Assembly: GCA_963969345.1 (NCBI GenBank)
Contig: OZ017768.1
Coordinates: 4,612,718-4,676,717, forward strand
DNA length: 64,000 nucleotides
Reading direction: 5' to 3'
DNA from: Turbatrix aceti
Lineage: Eukaryota > Nematoda > Chromadorea > Rhabditida > Panagrolaimidae
Every line of letters starts with the position of its first letter. The stretch's first letter is position 1. Shown in pieces: positions 3,359 through 41,390 of this stretch. Under the pieces are notes generated by a model, which was not told the origin of the DNA, searched no databases, and saw only the letters and a program-made list of their open reading frames with translations. The position numbers and the translations under genes are program-made.

Positions 3359-3794
3359 CAGGGATGGGCGAACGTTAGTGTTCGTTCGCGAACAAATTCA
3401 AATTTTCTGCGTTCGTGTTCGTTCGAGAACATTTTTGCTTTGTTCGAGTTTGTTCGCGGACAAAGATAAATTTTTCGAAAAGATAAAACAGACAAAAATT
3501 TAGGTAAAATCAGTTTCATGGTGCCGAAATTGATGTTATTTTTCCTAAATTGGTAAATAGTGTCAATTGCCTTCGGCAATAAAAAGTGTAGGAAAACTGT
3601 CACCAAAAACGTGAAAACGCATAGTTTACGTTTTTATGCCCAGTTTGGACAAAATTTTGTATAGAACATGCAAAAAATATGTTCGTTCGCGAACACAGAC
3701 AAAAATGTTCGCATTCGTTCGATTTATCGAACAAAATTAACAAAATGTTCGTTCGAGAACAAAAAAAAAGGCTGTCTCCCTGAGCCCATTCCTG
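3359..3794. mobile_element. hAT-like non-autonomous element, TTCGCGAA family, copy 1
   Basis: Starts CAGGGATGGGCGAACG and ends GAGCCCATTCCTG, which pair as imperfect terminal inverted repeats of the CAGGGATGGGC type common in hAT elements. Flanking 8-mers ACAGCAAC and ATCGCAAC differ at two positions, so the target duplication is probably decayed. The inside is rich in TTCGTTCGCGAACA palindromes near both ends. The core (about 3597-3665) reappears in reverse orientation in the element at 17047-17508. No coding capacity. Confidence 0.7.
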
Positions 3795-4069
3795 ATCGCA
3801 ACACAAAACTTTTTTTTCAGTGCCAACAAAAAATTTTTAGAAACTTTCTTTTTCTACAATTTGTTTGGATTACCTTTTTTTTCGATTCGTCTCCCATAAA
3901 TTAATTATAACATTGTTTCCCGATCGCCTATGCCGATCTCGCTCTTCCAGTCTCAAATTAAATGAGGACACATTTAACAGACAAAATTCTTGTAAAATCG
4001 AAATCGAGAAATAAAAAATCGTGTGCAAAAAAATACAGACTCTGTAGCGAATGTATGTGTGTGTTCAAT

Positions 4070-7000
4070 TCAGATAGTAACCTTCTTCGCGAATGGTCTG
4101 GCGTATTCGTGGCGAGAGAGTTCCATGACATCGGCGCGATTAGCAGGATCGTATTGCAGGCATTTGCGAATAAAGTCTTGGGTCAGCTGTGTAACTGCTG
4201 GTTTAGCCGGGAAATTAACAATTGTGGCTTTAAGAATTGTGCCCTCCTTTAGGATGCGTTGTTGTGTCTGTTCGTGTCCAAATGGCTGAAATTCCATCAT
4301 CAGTACACTCAAATCCCAATAAATAATACACTCACCTTCCTGCCGTAAATACACTGGTAGCAGATGATGCCTACGCTCCAGACATCGACTTTCGAACTGA
4401 TCTTTGGAGCGCCCAGTGGGCCGGCTTCGCGGAATGTCTCCGGCGGCAGGTACCAGTAAGTGCCAGCTCCCTGGGAGGTCAGCTCGATGGAATCGTTGTC
4501 CTCGGAATTCTCAACGGTCTTTGATAGACCAAAATCCGTGATTTTCACCTCAAAGCGGTGTGCGCCCGTTTGTAAAAGAATATTAGCCGGTTTCAAGTCG
4601 TAGTGAATGATGGGGACCTTTCGGTCGTTCAGGTACCGCAGCGCATCGACCACCTGAAAAAAATTCATAAAATCCAAAAAACATGATAGCAAATAACTCA
4701 CCTGTCCGATGACCAATCTGGTCTCCTTCTCAGGCATGACTCTGTGCTGCTTCAGGTAAAAGTCGAGATCGTTGCCATCGCAGTACTCGAGAACGGTACA
4801 AAACGAGTCATTGTCGATCGTGAACACGTCAAACATGCGAACGATGTTGGGATGATCGAGTTCCTTGTGGATGTCCTTCTCGCGCATCGCGTGTCGAACG
4901 TAGTTCACCTTCTTGCCCTCCTTCCATTCCTTGTTCACGTGGTGGATCTTGCACGCCGTCTGCCGGCACTTGGCGAGGTCAAAGGCTCGCCAGACCTCGC
5001 TGAAGCCGCCCTTGCCGAGGAGCGCGAGGGGCAGATATGTTTTGTTGAGCACCGGGAAGCTGTTGTACCGGCTTGCATCTTCGCTCTGGACTCTCTTGAT
5101 CTCCCGGATGTGCAGGTTACGCTCGCGATCGAGTTTTTCCTTCTCCGTCGTCAGCTCGGCTTCTTCTTTCTTTACATACTCCTGAAAAATCAAAAAATAC
5201 AGGTGAAAATAGCAGTGTGAGCAAAAACGTACCCGCTGAAGCTTGAGAATTTCCTCTCGACGATCGTAAAACTCGGTTGTTGCCATGTATGGCAGAGCTG
5301 GCCTGACAAACTGGCCATCATTGAAAGTAGACTGATTGTTGAGCTCGTTGTTCCTAAAAAAAATGAACTTTGTTCCAGTTCTGCAAAAAAACCCGAACAT
5401 GCCCCCAACCCGAAAATCCGGATACCCGCCAAAAATCTGAATTCTGTATATCCGGTAAAAAAACCGGTGTCTACTAGGGTTCGAACCCCCCCCCGCCCCC
5501 GCGGGGGTGAAGCCGGGGGTGGCCCCCCGACCCCCGCCCCCGACCATTTGTGACCCCCGTCGGGGAGTAAAACCCCCGCCCCCGACAGATTCTGCCCCCG
5601 ACAATGAGCAAAATTTAGCGTTAAACGCGGAAAAACGTTCAAAAACAACACAAAAAGGCAAAAACAGAGCAAAATACGAAAAATTTGTTCAAAATATGCC
5701 TCGGTTTTCGTTTTAAGATAAAATTGACACCTTTTTTTTATTATTTTTCATAGGACTCGGGGGCAATTACCCCCGCCCCCGACACCTCTGCCCCCGACTA
5801 CCCCCGTCCCCGACCCGATACGGGGGGGGGGGGGTTCGAACCCTAGTGTCTACAAACTCAAAATTTCAGCCATATTTTTGTTTTTCCAAAAAAAAATGAA
5901 AAATTTGAAAATCCAGTATTTTTTTACAAATTTTGTACTTTTTCATGTTTTTTTTTTCACAAAAATACTTTATTTTTGTAAAAACAGGCATTTTTTTGGA
6001 TTGAAGACCCCAACTTTCCGATTTCAATAAAAACTCAAAAAACCCACTTTTTAGCCTCCTTGGGAGCTCTTTTCTTCCGCAGTCCAGCGCTTTCCTGGCA
6101 CAGACTCTCCTTGAGAGCCTCAAGATCACCTTTTCGCCTTTCAAGATCCGTAAAAGAACTGCCATCGAACCATTGATCGTTAAAGTGTCCAAAGCTGTCG
6201 CGCTGGACATTGTAGTACCCGATGCGGCTGTTGTTGATCACGATCCGTTCTCTGACTTCTCGTCGTTCCCGCTTGGCATCCTTTATGAGGAATTCGTTAA
6301 GAGTGTTGCGACGACAGAGATCCCGATCCTTGAGTTCATCGATCTCCCTTGCGGCAGTGTCTAGCTGCTTTCGAAGATGACTGATCTCGCCCTGGTAGGA
6401 CGACGATTTGTTGTCTGCTTCGGCGAGGACAGCTGCAACCGCGAACGAAGACTCGTCTGTCTGGACAAACTTGTGTGGGACGTTGTCGGGGGGCGAAGTG
6501 GTGGGCGTCGACGGATACGGCACAATCGATGTTCCCGGCCAGTTGGCATCGTTGCTCAGAGATTCTGCGCCGTTTGACGCGCGTTTTGGGCTGCTTTCCG
6601 CCGACTGAAAGTTGTTCACCTTAAAAATTAGGAAAATTGTGGGGTTGTCTTTGATGTGAGTGTTTTATGGTTTTTTTTGAATTAGTTTTTCGCTGTTTGA
6701 AAAATTTATAATGCAACAAAATACTATGACAGATGCCTGTATAAACAACCAATTCCTCCCTCGTCCACCCCAAGATGACTGACGTCAGCGTAGATAAGGC
6801 TTAGCTCATGAAATCAAAAATTATTACGAATAAGCACACAAAACCAGAGTTGTTCGATGCTCACCAAATTGCTCCTGCTCACTGCTCGCTCCTGCTCAGC
6901 TCACGAGCGCGAGCGGAGCGAGCGCGAAAAATTGGAGTGCTCAATGAGCATGAGCAGAGCGAGCACGAAAAATTGAATTGCTCAAAGAGCGCGAGCAGAG

Positions 7001-8666
7001 CGAGCAAGAGAAATTTTTAAAATGAGCACTGCTCACTATAAATTTAGTGCTACAAATATTAAAATACTGGTAGTTTCGATCAAAAACACGATGTTGGGGG
7101 TATCTCCAAGCAATATGCGGTCTTTCTTTTAGCAAAGGACTGAATTTGTGACTCAAAATTCACTTTTCTTGTGTGAGCCATTTTCGCTCATTGCTCGCTC
7201 CTGCTCAACTCACGAGCGTGAGCAGAGCAAGAGCAGAGGATCTGAGAATAAAAGAGCGCGAGCGGAGCGAGCGCGAAAATTTTAGGAACTCAAAGAGCAT
7301 GAGCAGAGCGAGCACGGAAAATTGAATTGCTCAAAGAGCGCGAGCAGAGCGAGCACTGAAAATTGTCGAATTGAACAACTCTGCACAAAACACAGACATC
7401 ATACCGCCGCTGTCTGTCTGGATCAATAAATCAATATCGAATTTAGGCACCTATCAGTTTTTCGCCCCAGCTTTGCATATTTCAATTGATCCGAGTTTTC
7501 CAAAAAAAATTGCACCGTAAATAAAAAAACTGCCTCACGTAAACCCCTACCGTTAACAGCACCTCACGTCACCCCGATAAATCTACCTATAAATAATTAA
7601 AAACCATCCAGCCAAGATAAATGATCTTGGATGCAGCTTGTCCCCCCCTGATAAAAAAAACTACTGACGAATGAAGCTGTGAATAAATAAATCAGTCGCT
7701 AGCTCACATCAGGCCAAGCCTTCCCCTATATCTTCAAAAAAACCACTAGACTAGTCCTGTTACATTTTTCCAAGGGGCATCGTCATGCTTTTTAATCGAT
7801 GACTGGTATACTACTACGTAATTGCTGCTGCACACGACGCCAAAAATAGCTTTGAGACAAAAGTCGGCGAACAAGCGAACACAATAATGCGCACACGCGC
7901 ATGCATACAAGTTGTCACAACCATTTGAGCAGTTGGTAAATCCGTCTAAAAAGTCAGGGCAGCGCCGGTACCCGCATCGAAAACGAAAATGCCGCGCCGC
8001 AAGAGCACGGAACGCGAGGGCTTCTACGATGAGGGACAAGGAAGGAAAAAGAAAAAGGCGCCGACTAAATACAAAAGCATAGAGCCACCTAAAAAAATTT
8101 GAAATGCGCGCCAAGTGCGGCGTAATGAAAAATCGATAACATTAACCCAGTATAGAACGTAATCGCAAAAAAACCTGTAATATTGTTCAGAAAAGACAAG
8201 CGAGCGGAAATTGACATTTTAGGGCAAAAAAACTCACCGTATCCGTGGCAGGCTTCTTGCGTTTCCGCTTCGGTTTGCTGTCAGGAGTATTTTTGGGTGA
8301 CGTCGTAGCCGAGCCCTTCTTTGGCGTTCGAAAAGCCGAGTTGTTGTTGGCCACGGGCGTCGTCGGCATCGACGTCGTCATCGGTAGCGCGTTAGCCGTG
8401 CCTTCCTGACTGCTATTGGAGCCATTATTCTGGGGAGCAAAAGTCACAGAATGACACGCAAAATCTCCCGTTGGCGTTGCCAGTTGTGCAAAGTCCTATA
8501 AAAATTGAGTCGTCGTCGCATATATTTCTCGCACTCGTCGAGTTAACAAAAACAAAGCACCGCTGGGCAGAAGAAAAAAAAAAGAAGAAGAAAAACTCAC
8601 AGTCTTGGGCAGCGTTCCCGTCGACGTCGGACCCGTGTTGAACGTGGTCCTCTCGAGGCGTTGCAT
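4070..8666 (-). CDS. tlk-1: Tousled-like serine/threonine kinase
   Basis: Seven exons (8601-8666, 8238-8429, 6048-6604, 5233-5353, 4702-5181, 4336-4653, 4070-4285) join in frame to 649 residues. The N-terminal third is low-complexity with a basic KPKRKRKK stretch, a likely nuclear signal. A middle coiled-coil region contains the [22 protein letters not shown] block, matching the [21 protein letters not shown] of animal TLKs. The kinase domain shows [10 protein letters not shown], the ATP lysine in [17 protein letters not shown] and the YLPPETF activation-end motif. TLKs phosphorylate the histone chaperone Asf1 and act in chromatin assembly. Two long introns each hold a short transposon; the others are about 50 bp. 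The first ATG has an open frame upstream, so another 5' exon is possible. The C-terminus is short compared with vertebrate TLKs. Confidence 0.93.
5475..5845. mobile_element. hAT-type MITE, CCCCCGAC family, in TLK intron
   Basis: Terminal inverted repeats TAGGGTTCGAACCCC at both ends are flanked by perfect 8-bp duplications GTGTCTAC (5467-5474 and 5846-5853). Eight-base duplications and TAGGG termini are hAT hallmarks. Both ends carry runs of CCCCCGCCCCCGAC-like repeats; the centre is AT-rich. There is no transposase. It sits in the 694-bp intron of the kinase gene. A degraded relative of its interior lies at 36735-36960 in the IFT46 intron. Confidence 0.88.
6845..7383. mobile_element. hAT-type MITE, GAGCGAGC family, in TLK intron
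   Basis: The ends CAGAGTTGTTC...GAACAACTCTG form inverted repeats flanked by perfect 8-bp duplications CACAAAAC (6837-6844 and 7384-7391). The interior is built of repeated units of the form GAGCRYGAGCRGAGCGAGC-GCGAAAAATT and their inverse, near both ends. No coding capacity. It lies in the 1.6-kb intron of the kinase gene. Confidence 0.88.
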
Positions 8667-9232
8667 GAAACAATGATAGCCAAAGCCGAATGTTGAAAAT
8701 GACGATAGAAATAGCCAAAAGAAGAAGATATACGCCAAAAGTGGAAGAGATTATGTGAGAATGCGCAGCAGAAAGCGAAAAAAAGGCAAGACCGCAGCGG
8801 GACACAAATAACCTAGGCGGCACGCGGAGTGAGATCCTGCACGTTGCGCGCAGGATTTAAGTTCAAACAACAAACCAACTGGACCGAGTTACGGATCTAG
8901 GTGTTTTTTACGATATTCACTCCGTTTAAAAAGGCAAGATTTATTCAAAGCTATTAGTTTTTACAAAAATAATAAAATATCAAGCAACAATCGGCATTTT
9001 CAGACATACTGTATTCTTTTTCGTTGCGGGAGTTGATTCAGGTTCAGGAAATCTAAAATTTGAACTTGTTACAACAATTTTTTTCCTTCGGCACGATTTG
9101 AAATGTATTTATAATTGTAATTGCAGGAAGCAATAAAACTCGAGTTGCACAAGGCGTGGGTGACAGGAAACAAAGAAAGGCCTGATCGATTGCACCGCAC
9201 ACAGTTACCAAGTTATTGATGATGACGGTGTT
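8667..9232. other. Divergent intergenic region between TLK and Na+/H+ exchanger
   Basis: About 570 bp between two genes transcribed away from each other, expected to hold both promoters and undetected 5' exons. A possible splice acceptor TTGCAG ends near 9126 and another (GTGACAG) near 9161. I see no clear TATA box. Confidence 0.4.
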
Positions 9233-12056
9233 ATGATCATTCTGCGGCGGCCTGCGCATGGGATCATACCTTTTTCTCACTTTCTTTTTGATTACGAACA
9301 AGTAAGTGTATCTCTGAGTTGGTCGTTAACAATTGCAATTGTCGATTGACAACTATAAACAGTTTTTTTTATTGTTCTTGTTCTCAGATTCTTGTAGACG
9401 ACATGCTGAGATTCGAGTGGCACGATGTGAGAACCCCATTGTTTATCTGCCTCTGGATGATGTTTATCCTCACCATGAAAGTCCGTAGGTGTCTTTTTTT
9501 TGCTTCTTCGACAAAAATGTTGGTCGAGCAAAATCTTCAGTGTTCCACTCAAAATTCAAAAGCATGCAACTCCCGGATTCAGCGTTGCTTGTCATTGCCG
9601 GATTCGTAGTCGGGACCGTGCTTGACAAATTTGTTTCCCATGACATCTACATGGACCCAGGTAGGCTGATCTTCTGGGGGGACAAAACTGAGTGTATGCG
9701 TCTTCAGACCTCTTCTTCATGTACCTCCTGCCCCCGATCGCTCTCGAAGCAGGCTACTTCATGCCAAATAAGCTTTTCTTTCAAAATCTCGGCACTATAC
9801 TGACTTTCGCAGTTTGCGGGACCCTTTTCAACATCGTCTGCATAGGTCTGACGTTGTGGGCGTTCAACGGGTACTACTCGATCCAGATCTCCCTCATCGA
9901 CCTCATGCTTTTTGCTTCGCTCATCTCAGCCGTCGATCCGGTGGCTGTGCTGAGCGTGTTCACGGAGATTAAAGTCAATGAATTCCTTTACATTACCGTT
10001 TTCGGCGAATCTCTTTTGTAAGTTGTCTTTGTCAACCTTCGACTGCAGCAGAAAATTTATTCAACCGAAAATTTTTCTTCAGAAACGACGCAGTCACAAT
10101 CGTTCTGTACCACGCTCTGTCATCGATGGCGTTCATCGGGAGCGCTCACCTGGTACCTGCCGACTTCCTCCGTGCTTCACTTGCTTTTTTCCTCGTCACC
10201 ATCGGCGGGGTGTTGATCGGAGTTTTGTTTGCCATAATCGCAGCTGTTTGCACTAGGTAGCCTTTTTTCGGAACCCAAAAATACGCGCGCTCATTTTTTG
10301 GGTGATTTTCAGGATGTCATCTCACCTGAACTACACACAACCTCTTGTCTGCCTACTGGTGCCGTATATCTCCTACCTGGTCTCCGAGTGGGCCCACTAC
10401 TCCGGTATCCTGGCGTAAGGTCCTAGGAGCTGGTAGCGTGTAAAATTGAAGGGTGCCGGTGGTGTTTAGGATCGTTGTGTGCGGCGTCTTCATGAAGCCC
10501 TACATCCAGAAGAACATGAACGACACCGAGGCAACTGTCAAGTACTTTCTCAAGCTCATAGCTTCCCAGTGAGTTCCACTTTACTGTTCTTGTTGTCTAC
10601 CCCAGATTTTTTTCCAGCTCAGAAGCCATGATCTTCATTTTCCTCGGTCTGTCCACGTTTTCGAGAAACCACGCCTGGGACATGCCATTCATGATCGTAA
10701 CCATCCTTTCCTGCTTCGTCTTCCGCTTCGTCGGCATCTACATTTTTTCTTTTATATGCAACTTTTTCCGGGACGAGCCCATCAAGCTCATTGATCAGTT
10801 CATCATGGCCTACGGCGGCCTGCGCGGAGCCATCTGCTACGGCCTGGCCATGTCTCTGGACAAAGACAGCATCCCGGCGAAGGACATCTTCGTGACGACG
10901 AGTGTCATTGTCATCGTGCTCACCGTCTTCCTCCAAGGCAGCACGATAAAGCCCCTCGTCGATTTCCTCCAAGTCGAGCGCCAAAGCATCCCCACACCCG
11001 ACACTTCCGGAGCAGCCGGGGCCATGGTAGACGGTATCAAGGACGACCTCCTGGCCGGCGTCGAGGCTATCGCCGGCATCCGGGGTCAATACTTTGTGAG
11101 TTTTATCTATAGTTTCGCGCTTGTTTGCATGCATGCATGCTGTCCGTTGTCGGATTTTTTGTCCCCCTCCAAAGGGAAAGGGGGGAAAGGGACCTGTTGC
11201 GTGCGTGCGTGAGCGAGCGTTTAACCTCGAGCACTAAAAACGAGCAACGAGGGGACGAATGTTTAGTTCCCGTTCTCCTTTAGCAGAGGGGTGGCTAGCG
11301 CCAGCAGTTGCAGTGTTGTGTCTGGCAACACTGGCTGGTGCGGAGCTGCAAAAAAGAACTATAATACATACGCAGCGACACTGGACTCGACTTGACTCGA
11401 CTTGCGGTGTGTCTGCTCTGCGTAGGCATCGAGGGACATTGCGATGCGATGTCCGACGATGAGAGAGAGTTGACTGACTGAGTTTGCAAACGCTTTTTTT
11501 TTCCGAATTTCGGTGAACAACGAAAAAAAACCAAGAACGTGCAGTGCATCAAGTACAAAAACCAAACAGCCTAGAATGATGATCGATTGACGATGAAAAA
11601 ATGAAAAAAAAAGCAGTCTATCGAGCATACAAACGTTTTCCGATCCCCGACCCTTCCCCATGGGGACCGGGGGCCGATCTTTGTTCGTTCGAAAGAAATC
11701 AGTCCTGATCGTTAAATTGGCCTGCGCATGATCGCATGATCCCCTCTCATCACCCAAACGAACGTGACTAGCACGACTTGGACTTTTTGGACCGCGCTGA
11801 TCACTTTTTTCTCTTTTTTTTTCCTCCTGCAGACTGGAATTGAGCTGATAACGTCCCTTTTTTTGTTTCTTTGCAGTGGCGACGACGATTCAGCACAATT
11901 GATCGCGAATTTGTGGTGCCCGTTTTGACGTCATCCAAAGCCACGCATACGGATAAGCTGTTGAACAAGTTTGACTCCGCTCACCTGAAACCCGTTGATT
12001 CACGTGATATGCTTATCCGTGGCCTCAATGCGGAACTCTCTGCCAGCGAGCATTGA
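9233..12056 (+). CDS. Na+/H+ exchanger (NHE/CPA1 family)
   Basis: Exons 9388-9484, 9541-9660, 9708-10017, 10083-10256, 10313-10414, 10470-10568, 10618-11095 and 11877-12056 encode 519 residues. A tentative first exon 9233-9301, joined in phase, would make 542. The conserved core is clear: [26 protein letters not shown], the ion-binding FGESLLNDAVTVVLY, and YGGLRGAI followed by the last helices. The protein exchanges Na+ for H+ across plasma or endosomal membranes. The cytoplasmic tail is short, about 100 residues, and lacks the long regulatory tail of NHE1-type proteins. No convincing signal sequence was found, so the true N-terminus is uncertain. The last intron (781 bp) holds no recognised repeat; two AATAAA signals follow the stop. 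Confidence 0.9.
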
Positions 12057-12102
12057 TTGTAGTAACTAACTGACAGACTGCTTTGTAGTGTATATTTACA
12101 GG

Positions 12103-12120
12103 AATAAAATAAAGAATAAA
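12103..12120 (+). terminator. Two AATAAA poly(A) signals of exchanger gene
   Basis: AATAAA at 12103-12108 and 12115-12120, about 50-60 bp after the exchanger stop codon. Confidence 0.6.
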
Positions 12121-13460
12121 ATACATAGTCGTAGCGCACGCAGGTAAGCCCATCGTCGACGGTTCAAGGTAGAGGTAAACGATGGGGTTCCCAACATCTC
12201 CTCACCATTTAGCAACTACCTCAACTGTCGGAAGCGATGGCTTTTTTGCTTTGCTTTCTTTGCGCGAACGAACGATGGACGCAAACTGGTAGGCTCCAGG
12301 ACCCGGTGGAATTCGGGCGATGGGGGACGATGTGGACAATACCAACAATTCTCAAAAACTCCCGGGGACCTCTTCGTAGGGATGGAGGTGTAGTAGGAAC
12401 AAGAGTGGACAGATCCAGCTCCCCGGCCCCTGTCGATTCGTACTATTAGTAGTTTAGTAGTAGCAGTAGTATTCGTAGTAGAGGTCGGTAGACATAATAC
12501 ACACGCAGCACGCGTTGCAGGGGCCTCATCCCGGCAATTGGGGCTCGGGCTGCTCACTCGCCCCTTTCTCGTAAGTTCTCTCGCTGTCTCGTCGCACTAC
12601 GACACGTTCAACGGGGGACGGCAGTCGTTTTGTGTACACTTTTGGTTGGGAGGAGGATGTCCGTGGTCCGGCGTGGTACGGCGGCGACGACGGCGATGGT
12701 GGCGGTGGTTGTTGGTGGTGATAGTGGCGGTAGCGGTGGTGCAAAGAACAAGCGCGCGCGTGTAAGTCTACATCTATTGACTCGCAAGAGTGAGAGGGAG
12801 AATAGACGAGACGAGAGAAGCACAGAAACAAACGTGGTTGCCTCCTGCCATCCCCAAGCCCGAAAGGAAAACCACGCCCGCAGACGTTTTTTGGTGCTGT
12901 TTCGTGTTTGCTTGTCTGTCTGAATCCGGGCTCAACGCTAACGACAGACGACAGGACGACGCAACCAACAAACGCATGCACGGCCCATCGGCTACCACAC
13001 CACCCCCCGAAGAGGTTGGACTCAATGGCTTCTCTATGTATTTTTTACACAGTCCGAAGCGCGCTTGTTCGTTCGTTCGTACGCGCTCGCTTTCTCCTCT
13101 CTTTTTTTTTTAGCGACGACGAAGGGGCACGGAATAAGGGAAAGAGAAGGAGGCGGTAAGTGCTCGGTTTATGTTCGTTTTTTTTGTTTCTCTGCCCAAC
13201 AATTAGGACACTGATCGATTCAGCCCGCAGCAACAGCACCAGCAACATCAGGAGGGAGTGTGCGTTCGTTTGTTCCTCCGTTCGTTTTGAATCTATCCCC
13301 AACCTCCGAAGGAACGAATGAACGAACGCAGACAAGGAGACCGAGAGCAAAGGTGTGCAGGTGTACGCTGGTCGATGGTCGACTATTCATTTCTATTCCT
13401 TCCTTGACCTTAGGCCTCATCACAGCCAGCTAACTCTCACTTCCGTAACTGAGTCTGCAC
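12121..13460. other. Intergenic DNA, no gene recognised
   Basis: GC-rich in places with simple repeats of GGCGGTGG type around 12680-12745. Open frames here are on both strands, low complexity (Arg, Ser and Pro runs) and without conserved motifs. Confidence 0.4.
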
Positions 13461-14131
13461 TAGTGTTTATCTGATATCAGGTTTAGACTGATATCAAGGT
13501 CTGATACTGATACTGATATCAGATCAGTATCAGTCAGGCAAGAATTTTGAAAGGTCAACATGATATCATGATAGCAAAAATCAATATCAATCAGTATCAT
13601 GATCTCAGAAAAAAGTATCATGATACTGATATCTCAATCAAAAAAACGGAAGCAACAACAAAAAGCGGGTTTAAAGCAGTGTGGCAAAATTTCGGGAGAG
13701 ATTACAATCCGTGAAAAAATCTCCGGAGTATAAAAACTAGGTTTTACCGTCATTTTTTTCGTTATTTTTTATTTTTGAACACTGAAATCTTCTGCGAAAT
13801 TTTTTTTACCCGAAAGAATCTCCGGATATTCTCTGGAGAAATTCTCTTGAGAGATTTTGAAGATTCACTTTTTTTACTAGTTTTTCTAAACGACGACATT
13901 GCATGTTATTTATTCAAATGAAATTGAATTTGAGATTTTTTGTGGGATTTTTTTCATATCTAACAGATATCACGATATCAGACTGATATCATGATATCAG
14001 CCTGATATCAGGTTACTATCAGTCAGGCACGTTTTTTTTCCTTCAACCTGATATCAGTATCAGATCATGATACTTTTTTTAAGTATCAGATCAGATCATG
14101 ATATCAAAAAAACGGTATCAGATAAACACTA
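13461..14131. mobile_element. hAT-type MITE, TGATATCA family
   Basis: Inverted repeats TAGTGTTTATCTGATA at both ends are flanked by perfect 8-bp duplications GTCTGCAC (13453-13460 and 14132-14139). Within roughly 170 bp of each end the sequence is packed with variants of TGATATCA/TGATATCAGG and TGATACTGATATC; the middle 300 bp lacks them. Such subterminal arrays often bind transposase in hAT elements. No transposase gene is present. Confidence 0.9.
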
Positions 14132-14139
14132 GTCTGCAC

Positions 14140-16236
14140 CAACGCTTAATATTTATTCGCGGCTCGCTCGGTGGTTGGCTTTACCGTAACGTAGCGTAAC
14201 TCTCCTGGGGGAAGAAATATCATGTTTTTTGTACTCCGTAGGTAGGCATGTCACGCAACCGGCTTACGTTAGTTAGTCGGCTCCTCGTTGGTTGTTGGTT
14301 GCCCCGACGACAGTCTGGGATAGGAGTCAGTCGAGTTGTCCTTCCTGTCTACCTACATACGTACCTACGTGCAACCAGAGAGCAGAGCAAAACCCGGGGG
14401 AACGGCTCTGCTGACTGAAAGATGCACTTGTATTTATACACATTCATTCACGTGAAACACCTGCCTGCGACTCAGCTACATCGGAGTTGGAGTACGGTGG
14501 CTTTTTATAGCCCCTCTTAGCGGTGGTTTTCTCGCGAGATAACAAATCCAGGAATTTATCGCAGACACAAATTATTGCACTACACTGCGCAGAACGATCA
14601 CATTGGTAACAATTGGAGCGTTCAGGTGGCGTTCAATCACCGGATTTAATGATAAAAATAAAACACGGAGCACGGATAAAACATATTTAGTTTTTTTTTG
14701 GTTCACACCTCGTTGTCCCTCTTAGAGACAGACGACAGCGGCAGCTGCAATGGATACATACGTGACAGAGGGAACGTGCGTGCGACTGCGACGCCGTACA
14801 ACGTATAACAAAGACGAAGAGGAGGAAGTGATCGCTGGCCTCACCGGGCCGGCCCCTATTCACCTCTACCGAGTGCGTATATTTATAAAAAACAATGGGG
14901 ATAAAAAAATCTGCGTCGAGGAAACGAGACGCAGAACAGAGCACAGGAGTACGGAAAAGACCAAGCGCGAACAGAACAGATGCAAAAGACAAATACCGTT
15001 GCCATGCGAATATGAGGGACTACGGCGGAGTCCACGGAGCGGTAACGTTGTCGGTATTGATTGATCACGGACTCTGCACGGGACTCCGTTCGTGCCAGGT
15101 CTGAAAGCCTTCCTTCTTCGCCGTTCAACGGCTACGCACGTTTTCTGCTTTTTTGAATGAGCATCGATGCTCGCGCATCGTAAAAAAATCTGGGCCTCCG
15201 CAAGAGGGGTTTGAATCATAAAAAATCATTCTTCTGTCAGACATAGCATATGGCTTCCTAAGTAAGTAAGGAAGTGCCAAGTGTTAGCAGCAGGGGCAAA
15301 AATAGGGCTGAACCTTCGGCACAACAACCGGACTAGGCGAAAAAATAAAAATAAGAAATTTTATTTCAAGACAAAATTTTTAATTTTAATTTTTCAGCTC
15401 AACTAAGCACTAGCCCAATGGCATTTTTTTTCACTTTTTTGCCTAAAACATTTGTTCCAATGTTTCACAAAAAAATATTATCTCAACTTACAAGCAACAT
15501 TAAAAATACAATCGCTGCAAAAAAACTGAATTGTTGTCTTTTTTACCTGTTTTTGATTTTTTTGGGGACTGTTTTATATTCAGCCTAGGACCAGGTCATA
15601 GTAATTTTTCTGTGGCCATTGTGCTAAGCCCAGGCCCCATTTTTGTCTCTGGTCAGCAGCGGTCAGCAAACACTTTACTACGCAGAGGTGCAGAACCTGC
15701 AAAGAGCGTCCTCAAACAAATCAGTGTTTCATGGTCTTTGTTAGCGTTATCACACCTTGCTCATGTCCGTCGTGATCGACGGGCTGCTTCTCATGTGCAG
15801 CCGACTTCCTGGTCTACGCCCCGGACTACAATCTATGTATTTTTTTCAAAGCACTGCACCGGCGACAAAATTTTGTTAGCATGCATGCAGTGTTTGTTGT
15901 TTCATGCGATTATAATATTACCTAGGCCCTAACTAAGTGCAGTTTCTGTTGCGCGGATGATGTCATGCTTAACGCTGTGAAACAACGAAGAAAACCTAAT
16001 CAAATTCGAGAATGAATACAATCCAGTTATACAACGCGATGAAATTAAATCAAATCACCCAATAATTTTTACACGGCACCTTTATGTCAGGTACAAATAC
16101 TTGGATTGGTTAAATTTGTACAACATCAAACAAAAAAAGGAAAAAAAAAAAGAAAAAAAGCTGTGACATGGAAAAAAACGTGTACATAAAAAATGGAGGG
16201 GTGAGGTGAAGAGTCAGAGATTGATTTGGATGATGA
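14140..16236. other. Intergenic DNA, no gene recognised
   Basis: Nothing convincing codes here. Around 15330-15450 there is a weak inverted pairing (CTAGGCGAAAAAATA versus TTTTTTGCCTAA) that may be a small decayed repeat. The remainder is non-repetitive to the eye. Confidence 0.35.
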
Positions 16237-16831
16237 TCACTGATGTTTCTCGTAGGGCGTGAAGGCGTAGGCTGCGTACGTCTTGTCAATGAAAAACTTG
16301 AGCAACTGGGTCCACGCAGCGACGAGCTCTTTCTTCTCCTTGGCGTCCTTGATGTCGAGTTGCTGGATGCCGGCGATGAAGCCCTGCTCCCACATGTCGA
16401 GAAAATGAGGCTTCAGACCGTACTCGGCGTAGCTCTTGTGCTTGACGCCGAGTTGTTCTGCCTTGGTGCTCACCATTTCGGGGTCTAGGTCGTGGTCCAT
16501 TATCAGGGATCGAAAGTATTGGAACTGGCCTTCGCTGAAATATACACCAGGGTTTTTAAATTTACAAATCAAGGATATTGGTACCAAGAACCTACCAAAC
16601 AACAGCGAGCTTCGGTGACGCTTTGAGCTCCTCAAGAGTGCAGCTGTGCTTCAGGACGACATTGCAGATCTTGGGACTCGATTCGCAGCAAAAGAGCATT
16701 GTATCGAGAAAAATGTTCCTTCGCTGTTCGACTATCAACGGCCAGTTCTGCTTGAGAATTCGCCTTTTCTTGTCAGACATTTGGAAAAGTTTCGGACACG
16801 CAGGAGCGGTAGTTGACTTTCGTTCCGGCAT
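16237..16831 (-). CDS. Globin-family protein
   Basis: Exons 16596-16831 and 16237-16534 join (TTTG|CGAAGG) into 177 residues. The second exon contains the F-helix pattern LGVKHKSYAEYGLKPHFLDMWEQGF; the His in GVKH occupies the proximal F8 haem-ligand position. A long H helix follows (KKELVAAWTQLLKFFIDKTYAAY). The first half fits globin A-C helices (KKRRILKQNWPLIVEQRRNIFLDTM) but the invariant CD1 phenylalanine is not obvious. An N-terminal extension of about 20 residues precedes the globin fold. Nematodes carry many divergent neural globins of this sort. Haem binding is likely; role in oxygen binding, sensing or redox is unknown. Confidence 0.8.
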
Positions 16832-17046
16832 GATTCGTGGACGGTAGCTTGTGTTGGTTTTTTCTGACAGAACGTGAGTTTTTCTAAAATGGCGGTTTAT
16901 TTATTTAGAGAGTGTAAACTAGACAGACATGCGGCAAGCGGAAGACGCCTATTTTTTACGATCGTCCGCTACGAAAATCGAACGTTCCAATTTTTTTTGT
17001 CATGCAAACACGGAAACCAAATTTGAAATTTGAAAAGAGTGTCAAC

Positions 17047-17508
17047 CCGAAATAGGCAAACAACCGTTTTTTTTTGTTTTCGAACGAACACGAACATTTT
17101 GTCAATTTTGTTCGGGAAATCAAACAAATGCAAAAATTTTTGTAAGTGTTCGCGAACAAACAACGAACAGATTTTTAGCATACTTTATACAAAATTTTGT
17201 CCAAACTGGGCATAAAAACGTAAACATCGGTACTATGAATTTTCACGTTTTTGGTGACAGTTTTCCTACGCTTTTTATTGCCAATGGCAATTGACACTAT
17301 TTGCCATTTTTGGAAAAATAACATCAATTTCGGCGCCATTAAACTCATTTTACCTAAAATTTTTGTTCGTTTTATCTGTATGGAAAATTTATCTTTGTTC
17401 GCGAACGAACTCAAACAAAACAAATTTGTTTTCGAACGAACACGAATGCAAAAATTTGAATTTGTTCGCGAACGAACACAAACGAACACGAACGTTCGCC
17501 CATCTCAG
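17047..17508. mobile_element. hAT-type MITE, TTCGCGAA family, copy 2 (inverted)
   Basis: Flanked by perfect 8-bp duplications GTGTCAAC (17039-17046 and 17509-17516). The right end, read inward, is CTGAGATGGGCGAACG, close to the CAGGGATGGGCGAACG end of the copy at 3359-3794. The left end is CCGAAATAGGC, decayed. Interior matches copy 1 in opposite orientation, including the block with AAAATTTTGTCCAAACTGGG. Palindromic TTCGTTCGCGAACAAA variants are clustered near both ends. It lies about 0.2 kb upstream of the globin start. Confidence 0.85.
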
Positions 17509-17700
17509 GTGTCAACATTCCAAAATTTTGTGACATAAAATAACAAAATGTGATTTACAGGTGCCCCCTTCTGGCACCTACGATGGCACCTTGGGCATGG
17601 CGTGTCAGTCCCGAGTCTCCTCTGATGTGAATTACCGGCTTTAAAAGCAGGTAATTTAGGGATTTAGAGATTACGAGTGAGTTGCGAGCGTCCTTTGCAC

Positions 17701-18483
17701 CTAGGTAGTGTCATGCAATTCGAGACTGACTGAATTTGGCATCATCGGCCTGCAGACAAAGCCGAGACAATGGTTAGACCATCTGCAAACACACAAAATG
17801 CTCAGAAAGATGGATTTGGCTTTAATTAATTTGGCAAGCAAAAAACAAAAGTGTAATTCGTTCGCGGAACGTCGTAAAAAGGACCTCCACGCGTGCTTAT
17901 CATTGATCAAGACCCGCCGCTGCGGTGATCTTTGTTCCTGGACGCTTGTCCTGGATGGCACTTGTGTTTTACGGCCCACACATCCAATTGTTTCCAAGTC
18001 GGTTGTGCTAGGAATACTCGAGAAAAAAAAACTTAATTCATCCAACCAATTTCGGACGGCAAACAATGGTCGCATGCAGAAACGCCCCCTTTGCTGACGC
18101 AGGAAGATAATTTTATTGCCCTGCGTGACACTTTGGAACCAGGGATCAAAGTATAATATTACATACCTGTCCGGTCCTGCAAAGGCACTGCTCGGCGGCC
18201 CATAAAAATGGCAACAAATCTTGTTTGAATTTTTTTTTATTTCGTCGTTTTGCGCAGAATAATGCGGTAATTCGAAACAATTTGACCTTTTTCGATGCCA
18301 AAAAAAGCAAAAATACATTAATTTTGTTACCTTCAAATGAGTTCCAAAAATCTCCGGAAACAAAAAAGGAAACTCACTCATGATCAAAATCGATAGTATC
18401 CTCGTGCCGGTTGCAGAGCGCCGATACGGTATGTCCCATGGTGACGCGGTGACTCTACTGACGACCGGAGCAGAGCAGCACAC
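17701..18483 (-). other. Orphan open frame of about 260 codons, coding status doubtful
   Basis: An uninterrupted minus-strand frame, unusually long for non-coding DNA of this composition. Its first ATG is about 34 codons in. A 129-codon plus-strand frame (17708-18097) overlaps it. The translation shows no domain I recognise and is rich in scattered Cys, Phe, Arg and Ser without periodicity. There are no good intron boundaries giving a larger gene. It could be a young gene, a decayed exon cluster or chance. Confidence 0.2.
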
Positions 18484-19451
18484 AAGTGGCGATGATGCCC
18501 GCGGTTACGGTTCGTTTCTGAAGAACGTCATAATTTATTTATTTCTTATACGCAATTTTTTTATGGAGATCCAGAACACGCTAAGGAAATTGGAATTGTG
18601 CAAGATGAATAAAACAGACAACGGCAGAACACATTTATGCTAACATCAGGTTCAGGATTTATTTTTATAATAAAAAAATTTTTACAATGAACGTACTATG
18701 TAATCTCGAAATGGCAACTCACGGTACACACACAACACGGTCGAGGCGGGACGGGACGGGGCGGTCATTCCTGGGAGAAAACTTCCCTCCCCCCAAATTA
18801 TTCAATTCAAAGCCGTTCGTTTTAAAATTGCCCCGGAAGGAGAGTCGATCTGCCCAGACCAGGAAACAGAGACCGAAGTTAGCTTGCCTTGCATAATTGT
18901 TAGCACTGATTTGGGAAAAGACAGGCACAAGGAAAAAAAGGCAACAAACTGACCTTTACACCGCCCGCAGACCAGGCCGTGCCGTATGCAAGCGGGAAGA
19001 AATCATGCGCTTGTTTTCACGCAAGTGCCCTTCTCTGCACTTTTTAACCGGCAGCAAACAAATTTCTGGCACACGTTGTTTGGTTTTTTATGTGCACAAA
19101 AACCTTCCGGGACATGCATGGGATATGTTAGCATGCAGGTATATGTACATACCTGTTCTATTTACCTGGCAAAGAGGGCGGAAGCTTTTTTTTTCAATTT
19201 TTTTCTTGGCACTTTTCTCGGGGTGTACCCTTACAAGATGTGTTCTTTGTTTTGGAACAAGTTAAACTGAGGAACGGAGAATCGGTAATGAGCCCAGCCA
19301 ATTCTCGTGAATGGCACGAGGCATTTTTTCTGAGCTTAAAGACAAAAATACATTTCTTTTATATTTACAACACAAGCTTAATCCCACACCCCGCAAACAA
19401 AAACGCAAACAGTGTTTATCTATGGTATCGGTGGCAAAGCAGTACCCCAAT
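18484..19451. other. Intergenic DNA, no gene recognised
   Basis: AT-rich sequence without recognisable coding exons or terminal repeats. Confidence 0.35.
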
Positions 19452-19972
19452 CAGGGTTCTCAACGGGCCTGTTTTTTTTCGGCCCGGGCCGGGCCGGGCT
19501 TGCAAAATTGAGGCCCGGCCCGGCCCGGGCCAGCCCGGGCCGGCCCGCCTTAATAGTACCTAGTTTTGTAAATAAATTTTATCGTCGAAAAACCGTTAAA
19601 AAACAACAACAAACCCGAAGGTGGCAGAAGCACTTCCTCATCGTTGCACAGATTCATTTTCCGCTCAATTACTAGTGCTCTTATGAACTGACGACAAAAT
19701 TACGGTACCCGCCATTTACCTTTTGCTTCCAGATTAGCCCAAAGGAACGGTGCCAGGTCCGCATTCTGCGTGCATTTCTTTGCATTCTTCGCGGTTTTTA
19801 CTTTTTCATAAAATTTTTCATAAATTTTGCGTAAAATATGCATTTTTTTAATTATTTTCCGGCCCGTTTTGGCCCGGGCCGGCCAACAAAACCAATCGGC
19901 CCGGCCCGGGCCGTGGAAAATACCGGCCCGGCCCGGGCCAGCCCGGGCCGGCTCGGCCCGTTGAGAACCCTG
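19452..19972. mobile_element. hAT-like MITE, GGCCCGGGCC family
   Basis: The ends CAGGGTTCTCAACGGGCC and GGCCCGTTGAGAACCCTG are perfect 18-bp inverted repeats. Each is followed by dense GGCCCGGGCC and GCCCGGCC palindromes, with an AT-rich centre. The CAGGG terminus suits hAT, but the flanking 8-mers (ACCCCAAT, GCATCATC) do not match, so the target duplication is lost or the assignment is incomplete. Confidence 0.75.
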
Positions 19973-22549
19973 GCATCATCAACAAAACAAAACGTTTTGG
20001 CAACTTGATTATGGAAGACAGGCGCGAATATTTATGTCCGTGTCTGGATTCTGGCTAGTCGGTTTAATACCCGGTATTCATTCAACAGACAAAGTGCCAA
20101 AAGTAGTTAACGGCGATTGTTGGGAATAAAGACATTTTTCGAAAACGAAACACCGTTTGTGGGCACGATGGACGCTGTAAATCAAAATTGCACGTTCCCA
20201 GCGAATATTTTTTGCAGATAAAAGATAAAAGTTCACGGCAATGATGCATCACGGCTTCTTTGAAGTCTCTGAGAGCCCTAGCAGGGTGCATAAGAAGTGC
20301 ATGCTTGTTACTTTGCTGAATAAAGCAAAACATCCATTTTAAAAACAATTACAAGGCCAAGAATCAGCGCATAAAAACAAGATGCTATTTAACGAACGGT
20401 GAGTATACTTAAAAGTGCAGAACATTTCACAGAAGACAGGAATCCCCAGAAAGCTGGATTTCAAAGATTTCGATGATTTCAAAGACAAAAAAGGCCGAAC
20501 CACCGACAAAATTACAGATGTTGTGTGTTGATAATTTGGGTGGCACGAAGGGGGACATGTCATGTGGTGGTGCCTAGACACCCCCTCACGTGTATGGGGA
20601 TTAACGTATTCAAATTCAGTCCCGTGTAAATGTCAGTCATTAATCAACAAATTGGACGACAACAAAAAGAAGAAGTAGAAAAAAAAGAACATAGGTCGCT
20701 GGCCCTGTCACGATTCGCTGCTCGCAGATCCATTCTCAAAAGTTATCAAAAGTCAGGAGGCATTGCACGTTGTCGGAACACGGCAGGAGCGCGAAGCGAA
20801 TCTCCCTTCGAAACGAGGTCCTAATTAGTCATCATCATCCTTGTCCTGGAAAAAGGGGCCGGCTCCATCATCATCTCCGATGCTGCAGCCTCGTTTAGGA
20901 GTCAGCGCGCGTCGCTAATTTTTTTTTACTCGAGTGAAAGTTGTATTGGGCAACGTAGACAAACAACGTGGTTTGGGACAAGGAAGTGGTCAGCGCCGCC
21001 GTCGTTGTTCGTTGTCTTCCGTGTAACCAGGTTTTGGTCAGGTTGTGAGTTTTTCCGTGCAGGGGAACTCGGTTTTTTCTCAAAACTCACGTCACGTCAA
21101 AAAAATTGTAGCTTGTGCAGAACGAACGTGTTTGGATTTATCGTAACCGAATAAATAAAATTTTCAATTAGACGGCAATTACTGTCAGACGGGAAAGAAA
21201 CAAGCAACATCCGTAAAAAAACAAAAAAAAAACACAAATAAAATCTTGTATGTAGTCACCGGCTGTTTAAAAAAAACGCACTTATTTATATTTATTTGTT
21301 TTTCAGAGTATTTCTACATTTTCTGCAAGTCAGAAAAAAAGATTACGATGCCGCCAAGTAAATGAGTAATCCGGAAATCGCGGGATACTGTGTATGGCAT
21401 GAACATTTGTACATTTTCTGCAAAGGGCGGGCGACTGCTGCTTCCGTCACTGTCAGTAGGTGCAAAACGGTAACACTCTCGACAGAAATAGCCTTCCCTC
21501 CGCTACTGAAGAGCTCGCCAAACTGCCTCGAGGCAAACTATACCCAGCACCAGCACACCACCGTCATTCATGCACTCATTCGCTACTAATACTCGGTAAG
21601 GCATGCCACGGACGATGTTTGTCCAACGGGGCGATTTGTTAAAATAGTTCAGACATGAGTTCTTCGTTCAGGGGGAAAAATAACACCCATCAATCACTGG
21701 GGACCCCAGAAAGCATCGAATAATTAACTAACAAGGTAATTATTTATTAATAACCTGATATTGAGCAGAAATTAAATAGATATGTAACTTTGCAAATTTC
21801 TGAGTATATTTTGTATATATTTAGACGTCTGTGGCGCTGAAAAAGGGGTTCCAGTAGAAGAAAAAAATATTTATTTTCATATCAGACAGAAAAGTTTTCT
21901 TCGAAAATTGTTTTGAAAAAAAACAAACAACCCAAAGTGGACAATTTGCAGTCGAGCAAATGAAAGCAAACCATCTAATGTAAGAAAGAGCAAGAACAAC
22001 ACCGAACCAGTCGTCGCCGGAGCTGGCGTGAAATCGAGTTATCCCGGCGTCAGAAGTTCTCCCTCTGATTGGTGTTGGTTCAGAGGGAGACCAACAGCTC
22101 ACAACTGACATGCATGCAGTTTGGCTCTTAAATATTATTGCACAAACCAATGCAAAAAAAACACGACGTAACAGATGTGTTTTCAATTTTTATATTATTT
22201 TTGTTTGCCCAAACCCTGACAAATGACAAATCTCGAAACCGGGTGAATAAAAAAACAATTTTTCTAAACGGACAAATACGTGTCAAAGCCGAGACCGAAA
22301 CCCGATCAGCCCGGGCATCGTTGTGACAGATACTAATTTTTCAGAAATTCATGGAAACCCAGAGAGCGAGCGTTTCCAGAACGCCGAAACGAACGATGAC
22401 CGACCATGAGTGCAATTTATTACACCTCTGCTTCGAATTCAAAGACTAAAAAAAAACAAAAACAAAAAAAAACAAGGATGTGGTTGCGACGACGCCTGTC
22501 AGACTTGATAAGCTCAAAAATTAAACGAGAAACAAGATACAAGCGAGAG
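19973..22549. other. Intergenic DNA, no gene recognised
   Basis: No conserved exon seen. Short open frames (for example 20630-20824 and 21362-21589) lack conserved motifs and convincing splice structure. Confidence 0.35.
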
Positions 22550-24994
22550 TCAATCCCTGGAACCGCCGAAGGAGTGTAGCATGAGCGAGCCCGTCTTCCA
22601 TCGCTTCTGGCGATCCGGGCGCGAAGAAGACGCGACGAAGACTCCGCTCCGCTTTCTTTTACTGTTGTCATTCCGCGTGCCGGGGTGCCGCATGAATGAC
22701 TGCCGTCTGGGGGCCGAGATTGGGTTTACCGGGAAGAGCGGGAGATCTTCGACGTCTTCCCCATCCTCCATGCTGCCACCACCGCCACTGCCATCCATAG
22801 CCGGCATGACGACAATTTCAGGCACATCACCTGCCCCGGGGTACCCCGGAGAGTCATCGGGGTCAACGATGGCTCCGGCGGAAATATTGGGCACCAGTTC
22901 AGCCCGACCAGCTTCGGCGAGCGCTATCCTCGCAGCGAGGGCTTCCCGGCGTTCAAGGGCCATCTGGAGCTTCCGCTCCTGTTCGTCCTGATACTTTTGC
23001 TCATTGATGATCTCCAGCGTCCGGCGAAGTGCTGCGTTCTTGCCTCCGGAAGAGCCGCTGACCATCCAGCCGTCAGTCGCGTACGTCGACGAAGAAGACA
23101 TCGTGCTTGACCAGTACGCCAGGAAAAGCATGAAAATGCCCGCGATCACGCCTATCGGAATGAGCGCGCGATTCATGAAATTTGTCATTCGGTCGAAACG
23201 AGGGAACTTTTCGTAGCTCAGAATCTGCCAGCCGAGGCGTCGAGTGAATTCGCTCATTTGGACCCGTAAAATGTCTGAAACGTGCATGTCATGACCAAGG
23301 CATAAAACCGGCCTAAAAATCAGGCCGCCGGCCGGCTTGCGGCCGGCCTAAATTTTCAGGCCGAAGCCGGGCCGGCCGCGGCCGCGGCCTATTTTTTGAA
23401 AAAAATTTTCGTGCTTTATTTTAGGGTTATTTTCGCAAAATTTGACCAAATTTGGAAAAAAAAAATTTTGGAAATAACCTAATATTATGGAAAAACGCAT
23501 AATAATAAATTCCCCTGTCGTAAAAAGTAAAAAAAAAGACGAATGAAGCACAAAAACGTCAGAAAATCATACTTTTTTCGAAAAAAATCAACTTTCGAAT
23601 ATTTTTCCGGCTTTTCCCGGCTTTTTCGGCCGGCCTCGAATCGAAAAGCCGGCCCGCAGCCGGCCGCGGCCGGCCGGCCGTGCCGGCTTTTGCGGCCGGC
23701 CGGCCGGATTTTATGCCTTGGTCATGACGGTCTTTTGTTGTTTTTTTAATTTTTGAAAAAAAATTCCATTCTGTCGAACGAAGAAGACAAATGACCCCAT
23801 TCTTGAGTTTTAAGTCCGTTCTTGCAATTTTTAAAAGTGCAAAAACAAAGCAAGCGTCAGCAGTTTTTTTCTTTTTAAAATTCATGGCGGCACTCTTCTG
23901 CTGACTGACTTTTTTTGCGTCAAACAAATTTTTTGCAAGAAAACTTTGGAAAAAACGAACCTGCCAGAATGGCAGTTGAAAGCATCGGTTTTTCGAGATT
24001 CTTGTCGATGGGGACTGCGTCGGGGGGCAAAACAATGAAGAACCGAAAATTGACGGCACGGTTCTCGCGTCGGGGAAAGTCATCCAGTAGTATGACGTGA
24101 TACATGCTGAACTGCACTCTAAAAATAAAAAAAAATAAAAAATTGAAATTTATCTTGAGTGACAAGTAAAATTTCCGAAGTGCAGTTTCCGGGTAAAATA
24201 CCAGTGTTGTCGGGTTCAAAAATTTTTCGGGTAACCCGACCGGAACCCAAATCCAGATTCAAAATTTTCGAATTACCCAACCCAAACTCAAAATTTTTGG
24301 ATTCTAAAACCGTTGCATTTATTTAATTGTGAAAAAATTGTATAATTCTTAAAGTTTTTAAATTTAGCACTTTAAAATTGTTTTTTTTAATTTAAAATTT
24401 TTAAATAATGAAAAATTAAATTATTTAAATTTAAAAACAAAAAAAAAGAATTAAAAACATTTCAAAAAATATTTTTAATTATTTTTTTATTTTTTGACCG
24501 TTTGAATTATTTTTTGGCTTTTGAAACCCAAAAACCCAAGCCCAATTTTAAACTCGAAGTTTTTTGTATCTAAAATCGTTGGCTGGTGAATATCTGTCAG
24601 TTTCAAAAAAAATCAATGTCCAGTAATTTTTCGTGCCACAAAAAAAGTGCATCTGCCCATCGATCGCCGCCAAGCCCTCCCCAGGGTGTTGCAAAAAGGA
24701 CAACAAGTGCACCAAAAATTGATGTTGCCAAACATGTCGAACAACTTACGGCCCTCGAAGACGGCAGGCAGTGGCATTTCTGCAGTGGCGATTGACCATC
24801 CTGGTCATGGCCTCGAGGAATGGTCCGACGAGTTCCTGGATAGAGAGATCCTGGCAGTAGGCCATGCGCATGCCGGCGGACCAATCGAGCAGCGCGAGTT
24901 CCTGCTGCGAGCGATCGGAGGCCGTGTTGATCTGCGCATCGACGTAGAAGGCAGAGAAGGCCAACAGCACGAGCCAGGGGCCGGTGGAGAGCAT
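22550..24994 (-). CDS. Type I single-pass membrane protein of unknown family
   Basis: Exons 24750-24994, 23961-24118 and 22550-23274 join in compatible phases to 375 residues. A signal peptide covers about residues 1-20 (MLSTGPWLVLLAFSAFYVDAQ). The extracellular part has three Cys and a hydrophobic/charged alternation around QFSMYHVILLDDF and FRFFIVLPPDAVPI that loosely resembles a SEA-like fold. One membrane helix follows (MNRALIPIGVIAGIFMLFLAYW), then a cytoplasmic tail with a charged helix, acidic and Gly-rich stretches and a basic C-terminus. I do not recognise it. Intron 2 contains a complete MITE and intron 1 a decayed repeat. Taken separately the exons look like two genes; matching phases and topology argue for one. 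Confidence 0.7.
23296..23720. mobile_element. hAT-type MITE, GGCCGGCC family, in intron
   Basis: Inverted repeats CAAGGCATAAAA at both ends, flanked by perfect 8-bp duplications GTCATGAC (23288-23295 and 23721-23728), a target that is itself palindromic. Subterminal regions are almost pure GGCCGGCC/GCCGGC repeats; the centre is AT-rich. It lies within the second intron of the gene at 22550-24994, 14 bp upstream of the exon that follows. Related AT-rich cores are seen at 43778-43890, 30798-31190 and 28640-28815. Confidence 0.9.
24205..24600. repeat. Decayed repeat, CAGTGTTGTCGGGTTC family
   Basis: Begins CAGTGTTGTCGGGTTC and contains CGGGTAACCCGACCGGAACCC, then AT-rich DNA, within intron 1 of the membrane-protein gene. 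The same terminus in reverse (GGAACCTGACAACACTG) occurs at 34498-34514, and similar ACCCGACCCGGA-type sequence at 28450-28620 and 46752-47110. Ends and target duplications are not clear. Confidence 0.45.
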
Positions 24995-41369: not shown

Positions 41370-41390
41370 ACGAAAAAGTAACAAAAATCA

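Follow-up and report, generated by a model that had tools for sequence, protein, structure and literature searches.

Among the closest described systems is Hermes, a hAT element of Musca domestica, whose subterminal repeats are bound by BED fingers, two of them cooperatively on a quasi-palindrome adjoining the tip, with a phasing described as crucial (PMC10368747). These repeats are short AAGT/AAGC sites, irregularly laid out and differing between the two ends; activity requires unlike ends, and the target consensus is nTnnnnAn (PMC10368747). In Herves, a hAT element of Anopheles gambiae, the purified transposase binds the subterminal sequence CG/AATTCAT at both ends, and the left end also has three tandem 100-bp repeats, which begin 146 bp inward (PMC3143072). 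Four hAT-encoded, BED-bearing CGG-binding proteins were reported to bind distinct words within one genome, words that are matched in their own subterminal regions (PMC8097297). Mar and BuT2 of Drosophila are hAT examples of MITEs that have 8-bp duplications and a same-ended transposase element (PMC3517528, PMC3942097). The reading of private subterminal sites by BED fingers is already established for hAT elements.

We analyzed a stretch of 64,000 nucleotides of the nematode Turbatrix aceti (contig OZ017768.1, positions 4,612,718 to 4,676,717), referred to here as the window. As in Hermes, the elements found there have 8-bp duplications of the form nTnnnnAn, and two of their six families are tied by shared ends to genes with the hAT dimerisation domain; the resemblance to the Hermes repeats and quasi-palindrome is read from sequence. 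Unlike in Hermes, both ends are filled with longer words, which several families arrange in regular units of 41-42 bp, and unlike in Herves, the arrays start at the tip or within about 30 bp of it. Whereas binding was measured for the CGG-binding proteins, what is described here is an association of words, ends and genes.

Seven hAT MITEs and their copies in the genome

The seven elements are non-autonomous hAT MITEs, ordinary in kind: they measure 371 to 671 bp, have many copies of similar length, and are bounded by terminal inverted repeats (TIRs) and target-site duplications (TSDs). Judging from this size, they would hold no transposase gene. Six lie on the plus strand. Element e1 (3359..3794; tip CAGGGATGGGC, word TTCGTTCGCGAACAAA) belongs to an older family, and its flanks, ACAGCAAC and ATCGCAAC, agree at 6/8 positions. 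Elements e2 (5475..5845; tip TAGGGTTCGAAC, non-palindromic word CCCCCGAC), e3 (6845..7383; tip CAGAGTTGTTC, word GAGCGAGC in 41-bp units) and e4 (13461..14131; tip TAGTGTTTATC, word TGATATCA; a young family) have the perfect duplications GTGTCTAC, CACAAAAC and GTCTGCAC, respectively. Element e6 (19452..19972; tip CAGGGTTCTCAAC, word GGCCCGGGCC) has no TSD, as its flanks ACCCCAAT and GCATCATC agree at 3/8 positions, and e7 (23296..23720; tip CAAGGCATAAAA, word GGCCGGCC) has the perfect duplication GTCATGAC. On the minus strand, e5 (17047..17508; TSD GTGTCAAC) is another member of the e1 family, in the opposite orientation and with an eroded left tip; e1 and e5 are 84% identical, which leaves six families for seven elements. 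The first-pass annotation had listed seven short elements in about six families, five of them (5/7) with perfect 8-bp duplications, and all of this held, down to the duplication sequences.

Over 12 bp, the TIRs agree at 12 positions in 5475, 13461, 19452 and 23296, 11 in 6845, 10 in 3359 and 8 in the eroded 17047. The TIRs of hAT elements follow the tip rule YARNG, and the six family tips all fit it (CAGGG, TAGGG, CAGAG, TAGTG, CAGGG and CAAGG). An AT-rich core had been claimed for every element; the core is clearly A+T-richer than the ends in 5475, 6845, 19452 and 23296, and no such excess was seen in 3359, 13461 and 17047.

When the window was scanned for exact 8-bp duplications with TIRs of at least 10/12, 7 matches were returned: three of the named elements (5475, 13461 and 23296), two matches inside named elements and two chance matches in A/T-rich sequence. 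In 30 dinucleotide shuffles, the mean was 0.27 and the maximum 1. Two-letter duplications were excluded, which removed 6845, and the TIR of 17047 falls short of the 10/12 rule. A second scan, for 8-bp duplications together with YARNG-tipped TIRs, read 312,255 bases of the window and loci L001-L042, some of them twice where loci overlap, and gave 24 matches at 23 distinct places (L020 lies inside L037), with 0 matches in a reversed-TIR control.

Other features of the window were observed. A further hAT end, with an exact X1 tip (a family described below; CAGTGTTGTCGGGT) and X1b-like sequence (81% over 86 bp), lies at 24202-24290; no partner end was found nearby. Open frames on the minus strand at 4309-5688 and 6035-6664 resemble, by eye, a protein kinase gene, and e2 (5475-5845) sits between likely exon blocks of this kinase-like gene. 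Three stretches at 41389-43772 are 92-98% alike to parts of locus L027 and form a dispersed repeat.

The genome was searched over 59.9 Mb in 28 contigs. A first look gave 676, 173, 139, 94 and 194 candidate copies for e1, e2, e4, e6 and e7, of which 40 each were scored, and the 15-base tip pattern of e3 was found at 226 places, against 0 in a backward control. The region had been called a cluster, but it is not a special one: the scored copies of e2, e4, e6 and e7 are spread over five large contigs. The copies fetched for closer study were the best-scoring full-length ones, so that the sample leans young; they comprise 20 of the 21 selected for e4, 20/21 for e2 (4/25 rows having been dropped as not full length), 13/13 for e6, 17/20 for e7, 10 of 20 planned for e1, and the 8 e3 loci returned by the tip-pattern search.

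Perfect 8-bp duplications flank 18/20 of these copies for e4, 19/20 for e2, 12/13 for e6, 17/17 for e7 and 5/8 for e3, and one more copy each of e4 and e3 has a duplication at 7/8. The window copy of e6 is thus the exception in its own family. The duplications are weak for the older e1 family, in which 0/10 fetched copies had a perfect duplication, 3/10 had one at 7/8, and both ends were recognised in 5/10. When the ends were shifted by 1, 2, 3 or 5 bp, no duplications appeared for e1, e2, e4, e6 or e7. The median pairwise distances were 0.012 (e4), 0.017 (e2), 0.017 (e7), 0.029 (e6) and 0.098 (e1).

Three features of copy distribution were also observed. The 40 e1 copies that were scored, being those closest to the window copy, are concentrated at C1:6.4-9.0 Mb, C4:4.1-5.1 Mb and C2:6.9-7.8 Mb, in contrast with the young families. 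At C1:6731296-6768952 (genome G000), five e3 tips are each followed by an e1 copy about 2070-2086 bp on, probably as a locally repeated segment. At C5:2883033-2896050, an e6 copy and an e4 copy are seen again in unchanged order at a distance of 10,259 bp, which probably reflects a segmental duplication.

The 83 pooled perfect duplications have T at position 2 in 56 cases and A at position 7 in 54. They follow nTnnnnAn, the Hermes preference, unlike the nnnTAnnn of the Buster group, to which the duplications of Mar belong (PMC3517528): a central TA (T4A5) is present in 3/83. The hAT dimerisation domain (PF05699) was detected at 17 places in the genome and in 0/14 control genomes, and a profile built from ten pieces of transposase recovers Hermes at E 1e-19. 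The hAT assignment made at first pass is therefore supported, because the copies have 8-bp duplications with the nTnnnnAn consensus and transposase elements with PF05699 share the ends of two of the families (below). It is very improbable that the elements represent another superfamily with 8-bp duplications. Apart from e1 and e2 having no transposase tie of their own, nothing speaks for such an origin, and the tips, the duplication consensus and the two same-ended hAT transposase elements (for e3 and e7) speak against it.

Transposase elements sharing ends with the MITEs

Same-ended transposase elements were identified for two of the six window families. For e7 (word GGCCGGCC), the element at L026:2414-5410 has e7 tips, the TSD ATTGCGGG and e7 CGGCCGGC arrays; it matches the window e7 over 96 bp at 100% at one end and over 109 bp at 96% at the other. 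For e3 (word GAGCGAGC), the element at L036:4227-7088 has e3 tips, the TSD TGCTCATG and e3 GAGCGAGC arrays, with a near copy at L035. An e6-like end lies inside these e3 transposase elements (L035 and L036:5510-5583), apparently the result of an insertion of one hAT family into another. A hAT gene at L042 lies behind a left end, CAGTGTTTATC, with GATATC words like e4 (word TGATATCA); no right end was found there, and this relict ties e4 only weakly to a transposase. No transposase element was found for e1/e5, e2 or e6. The first-pass proposal of several transposases, each with its own site, accordingly stands as an association for e7, e3 and the further families below, weakly for e4 through the relict at L042, and is without a gene for e1/e5, e2 and e6; the autonomous hAT genes with the same ends that it had called for were recovered for e7 and e3, and in half for e4.

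Exact tips were listed for e4 and e6. Those of e6 occur at 74 places genome-wide, with no facing pair at 2-5 kb. Those of e4 occur at 103 places; among the 100 listed, one facing pair was found, 2664 bp apart. It was rejected as an autonomous element, being an e4 MITE interrupted by some 2 kb of inserted DNA (L123, C5:1802376-1805099). This insert has repeated flanks and no TSD (its frames were listed), and is perhaps an LTR-type element. At L027, L031, L032, L033 and L034, a hAT domain is present and no convincing pair of ends was found. A search with one L042 exon matched L042 itself alone, and the 660-residue L026 model had no relative at E 0.001 among 7994 scored candidates.

Outside the window, further hAT families have their own transposase and arrays: X1a (L028), X1b (L038 and L039), X2 (L030) and X3 (L040 and L041). 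Several are present as near-identical pairs (L028/L029, 99.7% over 2.7 kb; L038/L039, 99.7% over 3.5 kb; L040/L041, 99.9% over 2.9 kb). The YARNG-tip scan added X4, with tip CAGAGATGGCAG and word TCAGATCA.

The Pfam zf-BED model passed its cut-off at two hAT places (X3 and L032). On single exons, the scores were just below the cut-off of 20.6 bits, at 19.6 for X3, 19.4 for L042 and 20.4 for L032. In the pieces from L026, L028, L030 and L038, Pfam zf-BED was not detected, and C-C-H-C/H finger patterns were seen by eye. No BED finger was seen in the two e3 transposase copies (L035 and L036).

Taken with the words described below, these elements make it probable that each of the six MITE families is, or was, mobilised by a hAT transposase, with the cut made at the tip and the enzyme anchored by BED fingers on a private word. 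The enzyme would cut at the short tip of its family's elements, while its N-terminal BED zinc fingers would bind the many copies of the family-private word in the subterminal arrays; the cognate transposase would thereby read the arrays through its fingers. It could be argued instead that a few transposases serve many families via similar tips, the words serving a host factor or escape from silencing. Some tips are indeed alike across families, such as CAGAGTTGTTC and CAGAGTTGTCG, and no transposase was found for three of the window families. However, e3 and e7 each have a transposase element of their own that matches them in both ends and word, and X1a and X1b share the tip CAGTGTTGTCGG, yet each has its own transposase and word. 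We regard this sharing of transposases as unlikely.

Family-private words and their palindromes

When eleven words were counted in thirteen elements, taking the first and last 300 bp of the long ones, the resulting matrix was nearly block-diagonal: the only words outside their own family were GAGCGAGC, four times in X3, and a word of X1b, once in e6. Each word occurs 0 to 10 times in the other 60.6 kb of the window. In the genome, the word was found at both ends of all measured copies of e1 (5), e2 (20), e4 (19), e6 (13) and e7 (17). The words are thus family-private, and the first-pass description of both ends as saturated with one private motif per family agrees with the matrix and the copies. 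The same annotation had built each family on its own palindromic motif, which fails for 5475 and 6845 when compared with shuffles: the words are palindromic in only four of the six window families. Palindromes exceeded shuffles in 3359/17047 (10-mers), 13461, 19452 and 23296, as well as in L026 and X1a, and no excess was found in e3, L036, X2 or X3. In e2, the excess was weak, confined to 10-mers (5/300 shuffles) and mostly due to the tip. In X1b, the inverted pairs are centred on a single base, and a palindrome count misses them.

X1a and X1b are sister families that differ by one base in half-site spacing. Their C-terminal pieces are 45% identical and their finger regions 29%. Facing CGGGT half-sites abut in X1a (12/12 pairs within 7 bases) and stand one base apart in X1b (14 pairs, with 14 more at 6 bases that come from tandem half-sites).

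The arrays might also be neutral tandem repeats produced by slippage or unequal exchange, with transposases reading the tips only and the word without a role. The units are indeed tandem in e3 and several other families, and within a family alike units build both ends. Against this, the word is not only present at both ends of every measured copy but also nearly absent from the cores of e1, e2, e6 and e7; background tandem arrays rarely have the pitch described below (2/68 at 40-42); and in published hAT cases, as far as these reports describe them, subterminal sites are bound and needed. A neutral origin therefore seems improbable to us, and binding of the words by the cognate transposase is the reading that we retain.

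A pitch of 41-42 bp

Spacing within the arrays was measured by counting repeats of 6-base stretches at every lag between 12 and 89, with both ends pooled. The top lag was 41 in e3, L036, X1a, X1b and X2, and 42 in X3. It was 42 or 41 in the window copy of e2 and in 19/20 of its genome copies. Of the three distinct X4 places, two gave 42 and then 21, and one gave 37. Among the e3-tipped elements of the YARNG-tip scan, in the window or genome, 41 came first in 5/6, the one at L007 having 12, and a short X3-tipped element in L007 had 12, 42 and 37 level. No top lag of 41-42 was found in e1, e4, e7 or, with both ends pooled, e6; the left end of e6 alone gave 41.

Altogether, 6/10 hAT families (X1a and X1b counted once) have a top lag of 41-42 bp, while 2/68 background tandem arrays with periods of 12-89 in the window and loci fall at 40-42, one of the two being an e2 copy. 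It should be noted that the test of this pitch is post hoc, framed after the pattern had been seen, and that the families may share descent: with these provisos, six of ten families in one two-base bin occurred in 0/200,000 draws with uniform lags, and with background periods at a frequency of 0.0076 for any bin and 0/200,000 for 41-42.

A pitch inherited from one ancestral array, with no protein imposing it, is a serious possibility, to which we give somewhat less than an even chance. The tips of e3, X1 and X3 are similar, and the C-terminal identity of the X1 sisters points the same way. Against it, e2, X2 and X4 have the pitch with other tips and words, and when e3, X1 and X3 are merged, 4/8 lineages still agree (post hoc P 0.0019 with uniform lags and any bin, 7e-5 with background periods and 41-42).

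A distance of 41-42 bp is about four turns of B-DNA, and successive sites would therefore face one side. We tentatively propose, with less than even confidence, that hAT ends follow a code of two components: the assembly of the transposase would fix the pitch, at four helical turns, and the BED fingers would read the word and the spacing of its half-sites, which could be exchanged. The pitch would be common to families with unrelated words and be halved to 21 bp in one family. Under such a code, the geometry of a multimeric transposase may set the pitch, a point held with less confidence than the reading of the words, and the word may change with the finger. X1a and X1b could then represent the code in change, the tip and the CGGGT half-site being kept and the spacing of the pair altered. 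In the left-end complex of Hermes, base pair 47 occupies the place expected for TIR base pair 3 in the other dimer (PMC10368747), and by analogy this distance of about 44 bp may be related to the pitch seen here. No report of 41-bp units, of helical spacing in hAT ends, or of a pitch shared under unrelated words was found in the open-licence literature consulted.

G+C content showed no common phase relative to the tip (mean correlation -0.003 at shift 0, the largest being 0.056 at shift 7). An A/T tract starting 17-21 bp from the tip was present, at 6/6 A/T, at some end in 7/9 families (4/400 shuffles) and at exactly one end in 6/9 (6/400); at 7/7 A/T, the corresponding figures were 5/9 (20/400) and 4/9 (53/400). 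A one-ended A/T tract near the tip is thus a hint. Separately, a 41-bp tandem array around the palindrome TTGTAGCGCTACAA was observed at L027:2161-2277, and is perhaps another element of this kind.

What is unusual here is the presence, side by side in one genome, of private words and a common pitch. Structural detail on how a hAT transposase chooses its own ends among those of its relatives comes from Hermes, in which the site layout is irregular. The ten sampled families, several with near-identical transposase copies and private arrays, make up a convenient panel for studying which residues of the finger determine the word and what determines the spacing, and the pitch of 41-42 bp gives structural work a figure to test.
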